A stretch of DNA of 34,264 bases from Thermoprotei archaeon (lineage in GTDB: Archaea; Thermoproteota; Thermoprotei; QMSL01): NCBI GenBank assembly GCA_003650925.1, contig QMSP01000021.1, positions 1 to 34,264 on the forward strand, written 5' to 3'. Below the pieces are notes generated by a model. The model had not been told where the DNA came from and ran no database searches. It saw only the letters and a program-made list of their open reading frames with translations. The translations under genes were made by a program, and so were the position numbers. Positions 4,391-27,187 of this stretch are shown one piece after another. Positions within the stretch are counted from its first letter, which is position 1. Each line of letters begins with the position of its first letter.

Positions 4391-5536
4391 ATGGGCGGAA
4401 AACAGTATTTGAGAATACTTCTGCCACTAATCATACTCCCAACCCTCCTCTACATCAGCCTTGCATGGCCAGCACTACTATACGGCATGTTTTACTACGC
4501 ACTCTCAAGTGGAAGAGAGTTCCTGAATGAGGTAAAGAACTCCGTCAGTCTCCTCTTCCGAGACAGCCTTGACTATCTAGGCGTAAACATAGTGCTCTCG
4601 CTGGAAGTCCATATATTCACTCTAGCAGTGCTAGCAGTATTTCGTGCTCTTCGCCCAGGAAAAGGTATCAAGGCTGAGATAGAGGACGCAGGATCTCTTC
4701 CGCTCAATCCGTCCTCCTATCTATCCCTCGCTTTGCTCAAGCACTCAATAATGATGGCCTATGACCTAAAGACTATCCTGAGCTTAAGGAAGTACGGCAA
4801 GTCAAGACCACATAGGAGAGTTAGACTCGACGAATCCTATCTGCTGGGCTCTCTCATGATAGGAGTAATAGCATCGACTATACTACTGCTCACATACGAA
4901 GTCAACTACGTGCTCTTCTGGAATGTGTTCCTACTCTACCTCCTGGTCATAATAGTGTTTATGATGGCCTTGGGAAGGGTCAGCATTCTGGATGAGGCAG
5001 CCGGTAAAAGCCTAGGTCTATGGCACCGAGGTAATAGCTTGATAGCCACCTATGGCACAGGTGAGCTTGTTGAGATGAGGATTGGAGAGAGGACTGCTAT
5101 ATTAGCGCTCTCTCTCAGTACAGGCATGTGTGGAGTGCTTACGACTCTAGGCTCAGTGCTCCTAAGAGCACCGCTAACCTTCACTTTAGTACCTATAACC
5201 TTCGACATGTTATCCGTCCTAACAGCCCTCATGGAGTTTCAAGGATTGAGATCTATTCCAAGGATGTTCTGGGACATGAAGATGTTAGGCATGAGCATAT
5301 TGACAATGTCTCTCGTCATATCTTGGGGAGTCTATCTGAGTGGCGTCGTCTACTACATATCAAAAATCCTTGAACTCTCAATATCAACGAACATGATAGT
5401 GACCATGGTCTCGTGTATGTGGATGATAATAGCGATAACCTCAAGCGCTCTCCTAAGGAATCTCTCTCCAACGAAGAGAGTAGCTCTACTAGGAGCTTTG
5501 CTCACTCTTATCCCGCCTTTGTTGTTATTTCTATGA
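4391..5536 (+). CDS. Unrecognised multi-pass membrane protein
   Basis: I do not recognise this family. The protein of about 381 residues has roughly eight hydrophobic segments: one at the N-terminus (ILLPLIILPTLLYISLAW), one near residue 65-90, a pair at about 150-200 and a cluster over the last 150 residues. A basic cytosolic-looking loop (RKYGKSRPHRRVR) follows the second segment. There is no ATPase motif, HExxH or other catalytic signature. The segment LDEAAGKSLGLWHRGNSLIA between helices is the most distinctive soluble part. ATG 4391 is preferred because AAGGTAG lies at 4379-4385; GTG 4376 is an alternative. Its 3' end overlaps the converging GH99-like gene fragment by six bases. A transporter permease or a membrane regulator would both fit. 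Confidence 0.7.
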   Translation: MGGKQYLRILLPLIILPTLLYISLAWPALLYGMFYYALSSGREFLNEVKNSVSLLFRDSLDYLGVNIVLSLEVHIFTLAVLAVFRALRPGKGIKAEIEDAGSLPLNPSSYLSLALLKHSIMMAYDLKTILSLRKYGKSRPHRRVRLDESYLLGSLMIGVIASTILLLTYEVNYVLFWNVFLLYLLVIIVFMMALGRVSILDEAAGKSLGLWHRGNSLIATYGTGELVEMRIGERTAILALSLSTGMCGVLTTLGSVLLRAPLTFTLVPITFDMLSVLTALMEFQGLRSIPRMFWDMKMLGMSILTMSLVISWGVYLSGVVYYISKILELSISTNMIVTMVSCMWMIIAITSSALLRNLSPTKRVALLGALLTLIPPLLLFL

Positions 5537-6334
5537 TTTCTTGAACTCCTCTACCCACCTTGCAGTCATGTTTAGGTACTGAAATCCATATTCGACACTA
5601 GGCTCTATCTCAGTTCCTTCATGCCATTCATTCCAGCTGGTTACTACGATCCACTCTGCTCCACTCTCAATGGCTATCTCCCAAGTCATGTTGTATATCC
5701 TTCCACCTTCTCTCTCAAGGAATAGCCCCGGCTTTCTAATGATCCTGTCATCATATCCTGGCATGACTGTAGCTACAAATATGCAGTTATATTTCTTAGC
5801 TATGTCTGCCATCCTCTTGTATGTTGTTCTTAGCGTGTCTCCACTCTTGTCTGCTAGCAAAAGGGGTAGTGGATTATAGATATGTATTCCATGAAATATC
5901 TTCGCATATGCTTTCTTCGTGGTGTCAGCTATCAGTATGACCTTAATATCCTCTCTCCACAGCCCTTTGAGAACTGCCTCCCAGAACGAGACATCTCGGC
6001 TCTCAACGGCGTATATGAAGACTACAGGGGTGTTATTTAGCTTGAGGAAAGCTCTACTCCCACCATACTCCTTGACTATATAAGCCAGCTCTCTACATAC
6101 CTTACCTACGTTTTCAGCAAGACCAAGGGTTTCATAGTATATTGTGAGCTTTACCTTGAGGTCATGATCCTCAGCTATATTCAACATCTTCCTGAAGACT
6201 TTATCCTCGAAGCTATTGATGCCCCACCATGAACATATAAACACATCTATGCCTGCTTTTTCAGCCCATCTGAAGTGTGTCAATAGAGTCTTCTCATCAT
6301 TACAATCATATGGACCTAGTATGGGGTAGAAACC
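5531..6334 (-). pseudogene. GH99-like glycoside hydrolase, 3' fragment (split by TnpB element)
   Basis: This open frame carries the C-terminal three quarters of a GH99-like (endo-mannosidase/WbsX-type) protein. Reading from the element edge it begins GFYPILGPYDCND, then GIDVFICSWWG, and ends with the family signature SWNEWHEGTEIEP, whose glutamates are the expected acid residues. The reading frame runs straight out of the tnpB stop codon, so there is no start codon of its own at the natural position; the first usable start would be TTG 6283, well inside the domain. The missing N-terminal part lies at 7742-8008 on the same strand. The two parts together would make a protein of about 355 residues. 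The fragment is unlikely to be active unless the element excises. Confidence 0.82.
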
Positions 6335-7387
6335 TTAGATTATAGTTTTCTGTATCAATTCGTATCCTTTTATACCTCTCAGGGCTATCAGGTATGCTGA
6401 TGCTGTATGAATGTCAATCCTCCTCGATAAGGCTATGCCTATTGCATCAATTGAAGTATATACTGGATTTACTTTAATGAGTGTACCACTGACTTTCTTA
6501 ATGAGCATCTCCATCTGCTGTTGATATTCTCTAACACTCCACTTTCTGATTTTACCTCTGATTTTATTTGGCTTGGATAGGTCCTCAATAACGAAATACT
6601 TCACGCCATGTGAAACTGCATACTCTACGAGCTTTGAGAGAGCTTCTTGTCTAATCGCTCTTGACTTATCTTTGTCATAGTTAACTACTTCAGGGAAGCG
6701 GATGTTTCTCACATCTCTAATTCTTCCATAGGAATCGACAATAACCATGTTTATTCTATCAACATTAAAGTCGAAACCAGCATAGAATCTATTCCTTGGC
6801 TTCACTTTAACTCTCTTACTAAAGTACTTTACATATAAACTAACTGGGATGTTGAGGTATAGGTAAAGTTTCTCCCTAAATACTCTTCTCCAGTCTTCTT
6901 TCTTACCTTTGAGCTTTATCGTTACACCAGCACCATAACTGTAACTACCGCTAATTAACTCTCGCATCAAGGGAAGGTACTTTTTACCAAACCTAACACC
7001 TACCTCAATCCATTCGTGTTTACCACTAGCGTGAGGTATTTTGATAAGTACTTTGTCTGTGCTTACCAATCTAATGTTGCGATTACTTTTCTCGCACCTA
7101 GCACCAACAGAATACAGTAGTGGTTTCCTAAGCCTTATTTTTGATTGCTCCTTATACAGCCTAGCAACTTTAATTGCTGAGTAGGCATACCAAGCATTAG
7201 ATAGGATTCTGGTCAACCTTCTCTTTACCTCGCTTTCACTAAGTTTCTCTCTAAAGAGGAGTGAGTGACCAAGCTCAACAGCATCTCTAAATTGCCTCAT
7301 TATAGTAAGTAATCTAGCTAGGGAAACTTCATCATTAAGAATCAGCTTGCCAACTACTGTAGCTTTTTCTTCACCTTCTCTAGCCAT
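6335..7387 (-). CDS. tnpB: TnpB, RNA-guided nuclease of IS605/IS607-type element
   Basis: The 350-residue protein has the RuvC-like nuclease triad: D206 in YAGFDFNVDRIN, E268 in FVIEDLSKP and D325 in DIHTASAYLIALRG. The usual TnpB zinc ribbon of four cysteines between E268 and D325 is absent, so this belongs to a short archaeal subgroup. TnpB proteins cut DNA next to a short target motif under guidance of an RNA from the element's end. ATG 7387 has a strong ribosome site (AGGAGG about 8 bases upstream). The gene overlaps the preceding small gene by 34 bases, suggesting translational coupling. The stop codon is essentially at the element edge, so any guide scaffold must lie inside the 3' coding part. 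Confidence 0.88.
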   Translation of the reverse strand: MAREGEEKATVVGKLILNDEVSLARLLTIMRQFRDAVELGHSLLFREKLSESEVKRRLTRILSNAWYAYSAIKVARLYKEQSKIRLRKPLLYSVGARCEKSNRNIRLVSTDKVLIKIPHASGKHEWIEVGVRFGKKYLPLMRELISGSYSYGAGVTIKLKGKKEDWRRVFREKLYLYLNIPVSLYVKYFSKRVKVKPRNRFYAGFDFNVDRINMVIVDSYGRIRDVRNIRFPEVVNYDKDKSRAIRQEALSKLVEYAVSHGVKYFVIEDLSKPNKIRGKIRKWSVREYQQQMEMLIKKVSGTLIKVNPVYTSIDAIGIALSRRIDIHTASAYLIALRGIKGYELIQKTII

Positions 7388-7506
7388 AATCTAATCGCCT
7401 CCTCTAATGCTTTCTTTATAGCACCATAATATCCAAACTTCCTAACTGCGTAAACCTCAAACTCTCTCCAAAGTTCATCTGGAACTTCTACTGTTTTCCT
7501 AACCAT
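7354..7506 (-). CDS. Small ribbon-helix-helix-like protein overlapping tnpB
   Basis: A 50-residue frame beginning MVRKTVEVPDELWREFEVYA and continuing with a helix (GAIKKALEEAIRLWLEKVKKK). The pattern of a short N-terminal beta strand (RKTVEVP) followed by two amphipathic helices is that of ribbon-helix-helix DNA-binding proteins such as CopG-type repressors and antitoxins. ATG 7506 has AGGTG upstream and a TATA box about 35 bases away. It overlaps the tnpB start by 34 bases, so the two are probably co-transcribed and coupled. A likely role is repression of the element's own promoter or a partner function for TnpB; both are inference. The fold call rests on pattern only. Confidence 0.75.
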   Translation of the reverse strand: MVRKTVEVPDELWREFEVYAVRKFGYYGAIKKALEEAIRLWLEKVKKKLQ

Positions 7507-7539
7507 CTCATACACCTATGAGAACTATGAGAAGTAAGA

Positions 7540-7548
7540 TTTATAAAA
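7540..7548 (-). promoter_or_regulatory. TATA box of the TnpB element 1 operon
   Basis: On the minus strand the sequence reads GTTTTATAAATC. Standard spacing puts the transcript start near 7517, about 11 bases before the small gene's ATG at 7506. Confidence 0.6.
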
Positions 7549-7577
7549 CTTCTCCTACAATCTACTACTGATGCTCT

Positions 7578-7731
7578 GAATTCGATGATTATTGAGGGTG
7601 ATGAATTGTTGATGAACCCCGATTACCTGAGGGTGGCTGTCCGCCGTAGGGTGGTCGGGAGGATTTTAGCCGTAATGAACCTATCCGTAGCAGATACAGA
7701 AAGATATAGCCCGCTATATGAAGCTACGGAT
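7578..7731. other. Noncoding left-end module of TnpB element 1
   Basis: This stretch between the element promoter and the hydrolase junction has no convincing gene. On the plus strand it carries GAATTCGATGA (7578-7588), AGGGTGA (7595-7601), TTGATGA (7609-7615), CTGAGG (7627-7632) and CCTATCCGTA (7680-7689). ATCCGTAGC at 7683-7691 pairs perfectly with GCTACGGAT at 7723-7731. Inside that is a second stem, ATATAGC (7704-7710) with GCTATAT (7713-7719). The same blocks recur in the same order beside the second TnpB gene. It could be a transposition end recognised as DNA hairpins, or encode a small RNA. The GATGA/CTGA blocks resemble box C/D signals, but no proper C/D RNA can be drawn. Confidence 0.55.
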
Positions 7732-7741
7732 CAGGAGAACG

Positions 7742-8008
7742 GTCATGAGAGCCTATTATCCTGTCTGTTGTAGTATCGATTATGCAATGGTCCCAGTGAA
7801 ACCATCGACCTGTAGGTCCATACTTTGAACCATACCAGGGATAGTAGAAGGCCAGTACAAGTTTTCTAGTCTTCAAGGTTTCCCTCTCGTAAGAATATGC
7901 GCTCGTATAGACTTCCTCCCTCTTTATGTAGTGAGGCAACATAGCTGTGAGCAATACTAGTATTGTTATGACCACTCCTGTGATAATCAAGACTACTGTT
8001 CTACTCAT
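7742..8008 (-). pseudogene. GH99-like glycoside hydrolase, 5' fragment
   Basis: This is the start of the hydrolase gene interrupted by the TnpB element. ATG 8008 is preceded by AGGGGAAT. The protein begins with an uncleaved-looking membrane anchor (VVLIITGVVITILVLLTAML, residues 5-24), then a short linker. It then enters the GH99-like domain with LVLAFYYPWYGSKYGPTG and RWFHWDHCIID, breaking off after IIGSHD. The remaining frame of five codons into the element ends at a stop at 7724-7726. In intact form the enzyme would be anchored outside the cell and act on a mannan- or glucan-like polysaccharide. The rest of the gene is at 5531-6334. It follows the 8095-8613 gene on the same strand with an 86-base gap. 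Confidence 0.82.
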
Positions 8009-25700: not shown

Positions 25701-26804
25701 TTAAACGTTTGATAGACAACTATAGATATTGATAACTCTTAACCCTCTTAGGGCTATGACGTATGCACTAGCTGTATGTCTATCTAACCCAAGTTTTTTA
25801 TGAATTTTTATAGCGTATCTAGTAGTCTTAAATGGAGGAACTAATATTATTGTAAAATCATGCTTTAGTCCTATTAAGATAGCATGTTCCAACATCCCCC
25901 TCTTAGCAAATCTAGTAATCTTCCTATTAGCAGTAGGATTGATAAGATACTTTCTACTCTTTATTTGAGAGAGATTTTCAAATGCTAAGTAGTCAACACC
26001 TATCTCTCTGGCGTACCTTATTAGCTTTGAGAGCGCTTTAAGTCTTAAGTATTTAGCCCTATCCCTTGATATACCTTGTAGTGTAGCTTCTTCAAACCAC
26101 TCTGTTCTTGTAGCAATAATATTCCTCTTTCCATCTATTACTGCTATATTTATCCTATCTGAGTTGAGGTCAAAGCCAGCTATAAGCCCATACCCCTTAG
26201 GCTTTGGTTTGGAGAAATATTTTAAGTATAGCCATAATGGCACTTGGATATGAATTCTTGGGTATTTTCTAAAACTTATAATGGCACCATAGCTCTCCTG
26301 CTTTTGGCTAGATAGCTTACAGAGTTCACAGAGTAGCGGTAGGTATCTTTCTCCAAAGTATGCCTTTGCGCTAACCCAAGTCCTATCCCAAGGATAACGT
26401 ATCTTGACTAGGAAGAAATCAGCATAGGGAGTAAGCTTAATGTTACGATTTCCTTTCTGTAGTCGTTCTCCTCTAGAGGCTATCCAAAATCTTCTTATGT
26501 GAGCTATCTCTCCTTTATTAGCTTTTAAGCCCTCCCAGATGAGCTTAGCCTGCTTGTAGGCTGTTTCAAGATACATATAGTTTGGGATTATATCATAGAG
26601 TTTCTTAGTAGCAGTTTTATGATTAGTATTCTGCTTTACATACTTAAGCATGGCTCTTACAGCTTTAGAATATGCTCTTGCTAATCTGCATAGCTTCATA
26701 TAATCTTGAGGACTCTCTACTATAAGCTTGCCATTAATAGTTATGGCTTTAATTATTTCATTAGCATTCTCTCTAGTAATTATTTTAGTTGAGTTCTTCA
26801 ACAA
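25701..26804 (-). CDS. tnpB: TnpB, RNA-guided nuclease (short archaeal type)
   Basis: The 367-residue protein has the RuvC triad D212 (IAGFDLNSDRIN), E276 (LAFENLSQ) and D341 (LDRHTASAYVIALRG). As in the first TnpB, the four-cysteine zinc ribbon between E276 and D341 is lacking, replaced by a basic stretch. The two copies differ widely in the N-terminal half, so they are not recent duplicates. The start is TTG 26804, strongly supported by AGAGGTGA about six bases upstream. It overlaps the preceding small gene by 20 bases. It should cut DNA with an element-encoded guide RNA, probably to keep the element in place. Confidence 0.86.
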   Translation of the reverse strand: MLKNSTKIITRENANEIIKAITINGKLIVESPQDYMKLCRLARAYSKAVRAMLKYVKQNTNHKTATKKLYDIIPNYMYLETAYKQAKLIWEGLKANKGEIAHIRRFWIASRGERLQKGNRNIKLTPYADFFLVKIRYPWDRTWVSAKAYFGERYLPLLCELCKLSSQKQESYGAIISFRKYPRIHIQVPLWLYLKYFSKPKPKGYGLIAGFDLNSDRINIAVIDGKRNIIATRTEWFEEATLQGISRDRAKYLRLKALSKLIRYAREIGVDYLAFENLSQIKSRKYLINPTANRKITRFAKRGMLEHAILIGLKHDFTIILVPPFKTTRYAIKIHKKLGLDRHTASAYVIALRGLRVINIYSCLSNV

Positions 26805-26983: not shown

Positions 26984-27008
26984 TTAGCTCTAACACTATT
27001 AATTGAAT

Positions 27009-27187
27009 GAACTCGATGAACCTATGGGAGGGTGACATTAGATGAGGCTTTACTTAGCCGAGGAAAGTCATACGGATGGAATGACCGAATGGGACTAATG
27101 AAGTATGGCTTTCGTAAGCTGGGTAAAGCTGAAGATATGGGGGATGAAGCCGATAAAAGTCCAATGAAGGCAGGACCCCTATCCGTA
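27009..27187 (+). ncRNA. Structured noncoding region, possible RNase P-like or element-borne RNA
   Basis: No gene fits here. Plus-strand features in order: GAACTCGATGA (27009-27019), AGGGTGA (27029-27035), GATGA (27041-27045), a small hairpin GGCT/AGCC (27046-27059), GAGGAAAGTC (27060-27069), TACGGAT (27071-27077), GATGAAGCCG (27143-27152), GGCAGGACCCC (27169-27179) and CCTATCCGTA (27178-27187). TACGGAT pairs perfectly with ATCCGTA at the end, closing a 117-base domain. GAGGAAAGTC after a hairpin is the hallmark of RNase P RNA conserved region I, and the late blocks weakly recall regions IV and V, but the near-invariant ACAGAA is not matched. The first and last blocks recur beside TnpB element 1. 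RNase P RNA is possible but not shown. Confidence 0.4.

Follow-up and report, generated by a model that had tools for sequence, protein, structure and literature searches.

The RNA that guides a TnpB nuclease is usually tied to the 3′ end of tnpB, and nuclease and guide move together. Elements of the IS607 family are reported to carry a GG dinucleotide at each end as well as in the target, to prefer (G)GG, to cause no target duplication and to have short subterminal direct repeats, and in IS1535 these repeats are described as helically phased, with end motifs of 20–60 base pairs (bp) (excerpts of PMC6188088). We analysed a stretch of 34,264 nucleotides (nt) from a Thermoprotei archaeon (contig QMSP01000021.1, forward strand), referred to as the window. 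An element of 1,418 bp at positions 6325–7742, delimited by multi-copy alignments of its ends and by in-frame empty sites here and in a second locus (L278), interrupts a gene for a GH99 hydrolase and carries tnpB on the minus strand (6335–7387). From its sequence, this is most probably a TnpB element that has IS607-type ends and departs from the usual layout in having a divergent guide. The ends, the reading frame of the empty site, the structure and orientation of the RNA and the solo copies lacking tnpB were all computed here.

A structured RNA at the left end of the element

A predicted guide-RNA scaffold is located at 7572–7742 on the plus strand, divergent from tnpB and upstream of it. 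Positions 7602–7742 were modelled, while the 5′ end at 7572 was set from a palindromic TATA-like box, TTTATAAA (7540–7547), between tnpB and the RNA, which may function as a promoter, possibly in both directions. Alignment of 18 of the 24 left ends (L110, L111, L114, L120, L134 and L136 differed in length and were not used) revealed 31 base pairs in four helices on the plus strand, with 91.2% of cells paired and double changes in 16 of the 31 pairs. The covariation score was 0.361, compared to 0.143 for shuffles and 0.07–0.09 for slid controls. A covariance model built only from left ends (R1) later recovered five of the six omitted ends at E ≤ 3e-16, while the match to L136 reached only E 0.09. 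In the copies aligned, the RNA ends exactly at the element edge, at the junction to the host DNA.

The orientation of the RNA relative to tnpB was determined by crossing 58 of 61 tnpB matches (three second fragments were left out) with 123 RNA hits. This resulted in 26 pairs no more than 1.5 kb apart, 25 of which have the RNA upstream and divergent; the single exception is a solo copy nested in L278, where the host tnpB has a divergent RNA of its own (L278 1619–1777). The remaining 32 tnpB genes had no RNA match at these filters. Direct application of R1 to 31 tnpB loci gave 24 hits, some of them missed earlier, and all were upstream and divergent. In ten further genomes, adjoining tnpB and RNA were likewise divergent throughout (two cases in G178, one in G119, three in G223, one in G292). 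Among 20 loci of the G223 family of genomes that match the Rfam family RF02814, all nine with a window-type tnpB showed the divergent arrangement; the other 11 have no window-type tnpB, although one of them, L348, has a canonical tnpB fragment at a distance of more than 1 kb. Among window-type elements there is thus no confirmed exception to the upstream, divergent placement of the RNA. In a wider draw, R1 hits were found in 23 of 300 genomes of the phylum.

The window contains a second, diverged tnpB at 25701–26804 on the minus strand, with a match to TIGR01765. Upstream of it, a noncoding stretch on the plus strand (~26998–27180) resembles the RNA by eye (GGCTTTACTTAGCCGAGG...GCTGGGTAAAGC), and R1 finds no match in this stretch at E ≤ 5.

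At loci of IS607 elements with tnpA, R1 gave hits at the 3′ end of tnpB, in the same orientation as tnpB and ending at the right end of the element (L184, E 2e-5; L187, E 8e-5; L186, E 3e-4), and a partial match in L194. This indicates that in canonical IS607 elements the same RNA occupies the usual position of a TnpB guide. Such a position, like the end of the RNA at the host junction, argues against taking the left-end structure for a signal of transposition, or for a regulatory small RNA (sRNA) in its own right, instead of a TnpB guide. This alternative draws on the last ~60 nt, which also hold repeats resembling TnpA sites, on the match of the RNA to an Rfam sRNA family, and on transposon-derived antisense RNAs known from Sulfolobus solfataricus (excerpt of PMC3674436). 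However, helix 1, which covaries and encloses helix 2, is located ~83–124 nt from the end and thus beyond the reach reported for the end motifs of IS1535 (PMC6188088), and we consider a signal or an independent sRNA unlikely.

The first-pass annotation had placed the guide RNA at the opposite boundary, with tnpB coding sequence as scaffold and hydrolase sequence as guide. A guide RNA composed of the 3′ coding end of tnpB and the flank in the C-terminal hydrolase half would follow the usual layout of IS200/IS605 TnpB (PMC11061315, PMC12817955, both in part), and the 3′ 58 nt are conserved whether or not a copy has tnpB. Yet the 66 nt at the tnpB 3′ end gave zero conserved pairs over 23 copies (23 ends from 29 references, after removal of duplicates, spurious matches and the truncated L111), and a 98 nt stretch containing these 66 nt folds no better than shuffles (z +1.18). 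The conservation of the 3′ end, also seen in tnpB-less copies, is explained by the IS607 transposase end, which is mirrored in IS607 elements with tnpA. Considering also the orientation census, the guide RNA expected for TnpB at the tnpB 3′ end and on the same strand was not found, and we abandoned it as the best model. Since a covarying RNA ends at the opposite boundary on the opposite strand, it is the better candidate for the guide RNA, and a guide at the 3′ end appears very unlikely. The idea that a promoter of the solo copies transcribes the tnpB-side end was dropped once the covarying RNA had been found at the other side.

Element ends and the interrupted GH99 gene

The two reading frames flanking the element are parts of one GH99 gene. 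The N-terminal half (7743–8008, minus strand) matches Glyco_hydro_99 (PF16317) at profile positions 5–38 with E 4.6e-4, under the curated cut-off, and the C-terminal half (5531–6324, minus strand) matches positions 58–309 with E 7e-34; the matched positions are complementary and do not overlap. Removal of 6325–7742, with one GG core kept, leads to a frame of 353 codons without a stop. Both results bear out the earlier claim that a TnpB element splits a single hydrolase gene. The other two core offsets result in stops at codons 92 and 95. The CC of CCCC that was taken as the core was chosen by the reading frame, and any single in-frame outcome has a one-in-three chance by itself.

The reconstructed empty site reads GGC TCT CAT GAC CCC ATA CTA GGT, corresponding to GSHDPILGPYD. 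The hydrolase resumes at PILGPYD, and the codons for "GFY" are element sequence. We assign these codons and the GG core to the element, as more than 20 other copies whose flanks are unrelated have GTTTCT(A/G)CC at their ends too; that the frame stays open through GFY is due to coincidental phase. The hydrolase had been thought to continue in phase directly after the tnpB stop (6335–6337), but positions 6327–6334 and the GG core at 6325–6326 belong to the element, and the hydrolase frame was rejected as sufficient proof of the edge. The placement of the right edge at the tnpB stop was nevertheless close, as it lies 10 nt past the stop.

Intact GH99 relatives in other archaea and bacteria show at most 47% identity over the full C-terminal part. 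They retain the P (xP.LGPYD), and the loop at the junction varies in length, being longer in L044, the nearest relative by N-terminal sequence. The proposed comparison with uninterrupted homologues thus confirms that the halves belong together but does not fix the joint to the base, and among the intact relatives compared there was no true orthologue that alone fixes the junction.

When the element was searched against 61 genomes, many partial matches at both ends were obtained. In copies with unrelated flanks the left end starts R|CCGTTC and the right end finishes TTTCT(A/G)CC, in most cases with one or two further C behind it. The right end in the window is GGTTTCTACC, and the 8 bases after the tnpB stop together with the core are part of the element. 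In L278 (G003:C102), a solo RNA element (564–836) is nested inside a tnpB of the same lineage, and the identical core choice restores the frame there, giving ARG-HPRKKAW as compared to KGCPRQRAW of intact relatives. The joined flanks of 16 copies, at three offsets (the end of L111 was set roughly), gave no long frame across the joint except in the window, and none was seen in the nine of ten G178 copies evaluated (the end of L317 is doubtful); these joined flanks are uninformative, speaking neither for nor against the core choice. In the canonical IS607 tnpA-tnpB elements L184, L186 and L194, ~10 nt, GGA(C/T)AAACGG, lie between the tnpB stop and the flank, so short noncoding right ends occur in canonical elements too. 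The canonical element L187 reads through that point.

GG cores are present at each end of the element in the window (6325–6326 and 7741–7742, included in the element) and in the target, without duplication. The end at 6325–6390 (plus strand), GG-TAGAAACC..., overlaps the last tnpB codons, is kept in tnpB-less copies and has TGTATC-like repeats ~10 bp apart, as read by eye. It mirrors the IS607 end upstream of tnpA in relatives, whose IS607-like tnpA elements begin GGG(G)CAGAAAC...TATATCTTTTTGTATC, a mirror of the reverse complement of the right end; this likeness to tnpA-bearing elements was judged by eye, and pairwise blast is weak. With the repeats read in this way, the ends fit the IS607 features reported in the excerpts of PMC6188088. 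The element has IS607-type ends, is non-autonomous and is inserted in the GH99 gene at a GG target.

Between 6325 and 7742 there is only a small open reading frame besides tnpB, and no gene for the serine transposase TnpA. As the element has no tnpA of its own, and as its ends match those of serine-recombinase IS607 elements of relatives, it was probably moved in trans by a serine transposase (TnpA_S); its own genome encodes four PF00239 serine recombinases. Membership in IS200/IS605 was rejected, since there is no Y1 gene (0 matches to PF01797, Y1/HUH transposase, in its own genome) and no fixed target motif of 4–5 nt beside the left end, where only a purine precedes the CCGTTC-like sequence in 24 copies.

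Solo copies and the sRNA family Sso133

Many copies of the RNA are not accompanied by tnpB. Nineteen of 20 fetched RNA-bearing loci have no substantial tnpB within the stretch taken, several being cut by contig ends; L295, one of the 19, keeps a tnpB tail of 22 codons, and the exception is L278. The complete, single-contig genome G178 has 14 RNA hits versus 2 tnpB genes. Ten of its eleven strong copies were fetched (L314–L323), and eight of these ten are solo elements of 287–309 bp. Over ~272 nt they share 94–98% identity with one of their number, and no two have the same flank as guide. The two full copies of G178 have the same 201 nt RNA part and the same 77 nt end, with ~1 kb of tnpB between them, which indicates that the solo copies of this genome are internal deletions that spread recently and kept the RNA. 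The tnpB-less copies keep both ends, the RNA and the promoter-like box, the TATA-like sequence being kept in several solo copies. Such copies may act as single guide genes that are served by TnpB in trans.

RF02814 (Sso133, a Sulfolobus sRNA) covers the 5′ half of the RNA, with 39.2 bits for L315 versus a gathering threshold of 44. In G223, all six RF02814 hits correspond to the six R1 hits in position and strand. Within the G223 family, matches to RF02814 were found in 12 of 31 genomes, above the cut-off in 10 of the 31.

Circular RNAs of IS200/IS605 transposase genes have been described from the 3′ end in S. acidocaldarius and from the 5′ end in S. solfataricus (excerpt of PMC12558985), and the 5′-end RNAs of S. 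solfataricus would fit a divergent guide. From the same organism, RNA-257 1-4 are transcribed solo RNAs from the distal, tnpB-like transposase part of ISC1904, the other gene of which is a resolvase (excerpt of PMC3674436). In a limited search of the open-access literature, which is weak evidence of absence, no TnpB guide RNA encoded divergently upstream was described.

Predicted guide, TnpB and comparison with known systems

As the RNA ends at the element edge, the guide probably begins at 7743, and the target-adjacent motif would be on the GGGG side. The predicted guide at 7743–7762 (plus strand, length assumed) comprises the first flank bases past the boundary and is antisense to the N-terminal half of the hydrolase. 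The GGGG at 6323–6326 (plus strand), composed of the flank GG and the core GG, is the predicted motif, according to base counts of the flanks: before the core GG, G occupies position −1 in 22 of 23 ends and position −2 in 16 of 23, where the core GG was itself a condition of the motif filter that yielded these ends. Target motifs measured elsewhere for IS607 TnpB are AGGAG or GAGGG (PMC11061315, in part). In the empty site, the predicted target is TATGGGG followed by TCATGAGAGCC, while in the occupied site the same bases are preceded by GAACGG, and the motif would be lacking.

In the divergent-guide arrangement that we favour, one strand encodes the small open reading frame and a compact TnpB whose RuvC triad is intact, and the other strand would carry, divergently, a guide-RNA gene whose scaffold ends at the boundary, the next host bases serving as guide. 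Compared to canonical IS607 elements, tnpB is inverted relative to the ends and the RNA. TnpB and the RNA would recognise (G)GGG followed by the guide sequence. Since motif and guide are next to each other nowhere but in the empty site, this site would be the one cut by TnpB, which would favour re-copying of the element.

The TnpB protein (350 amino acids) has no match in Pfam, and its matches to NCBIfam NF040570 (E 5e-6) and TIGR01766 (E 1e-5) fall short of the cut-offs. No solved structure matches it better than E 0.36, and no viral relatives were confirmed in IMG/VR. We aligned it to 20 relatives and three canonical TnpBs. All 21 proteins of the lineage retain the RuvC residues D, E and D, while none has the C-terminal zinc ribbon, which is partly present in the canonical L184, L186 and L194. 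Although the lost zinc ribbon and the many different guides of the solo RNAs could suggest a nuclease-dead, RNA-guided repressor whose divergent RNA regulates host genes, the conserved RuvC triad and the fact that the guides are simply the flanks of mobile copies make this highly improbable.

The small open reading frame (7354–7506, minus strand; 50 amino acids, ribbon-helix-helix-like by eye) overlaps the tnpB start. It has a clear homologue only upstream of the G052 tnpB and no match in Pfam or NCBIfam. An inverted repeat, GAGAAGT...ACTTCTC, flanks the TATA-like box and could be an operator for its product.

Several points weigh against a divergent guide. The strand preference from the counts of G-U versus A-C (56 to 32) favours the plus strand only modestly. 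The match of R1 to canonical IS607 RNAs is moderate; R1 finds nothing at E ≤ 5 in three of eight tnpA loci (L178, L179, L183) and matches L185 only at E 0.12, tnpB being degenerate or cut off in some of these weak or negative loci. Seven of the 31 tnpB loci searched directly, including the second tnpB of the window, have no RNA match. The RNA of the window gives no match to RF02814 at E ≤ 1; this copy is too diverged for the family. Target motif, guide length and promoter were read from the sequence only, and transcription, binding by TnpB and homing are, like the motif, deduced.

A broader proposal, to which we give slightly less than an even chance, is that an entire lineage of TnpB systems in archaea split the guide from the nuclease, so that mobile single-guide cassettes without tnpB share one TnpB in trans, each insertion adds a guide to a repertoire spanning the genome, and Sso133 is the conserved core of the guide RNA. 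A separately placed, divergent guide gene would uncouple the guide from the nuclease and explain why small elements without tnpB could remain mobile and protected. It would also suggest a function for Sso133, and guides and target motifs of such elements would have to be read from the opposite end.

Rfam Sso133 resembles the RNA described here in that it covers its 5′ half, but the Rfam model is limited to 73 positions, and no partner protein is named in its record line. RNA-257 1-4, set beside the window RNA by description, are also solo RNAs derived from the tnpB-like part of an element, but they are described as antisense regulators and are sense to the transposase gene (excerpt of PMC3674436). 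The IS607 family, including archaeal elements of the ISC1904/ISC1926 type with serine TnpA and TnpB, shares with the element in the window the GG cores, the absence of duplication, the (G)GG targets and the subterminal repeats (PMC6188088, in part), as well as an RNA at the element end that runs into the flank. In contrast, the element in the window has no tnpA, its tnpB is inverted relative to the ends, and its RNA is divergent and upstream of tnpB, while the IS607 RNA overlaps or follows the tnpB 3′ end. With TnpB/omegaRNA (reRNA) systems it has in common the RuvC nuclease, an RNA ending at the element boundary and, as we infer here, a host flank as guide with the target motif on the other flank; it differs in that the RNA is a separate divergent gene 5′ of tnpB and in that TnpB lacks the zinc ribbon.

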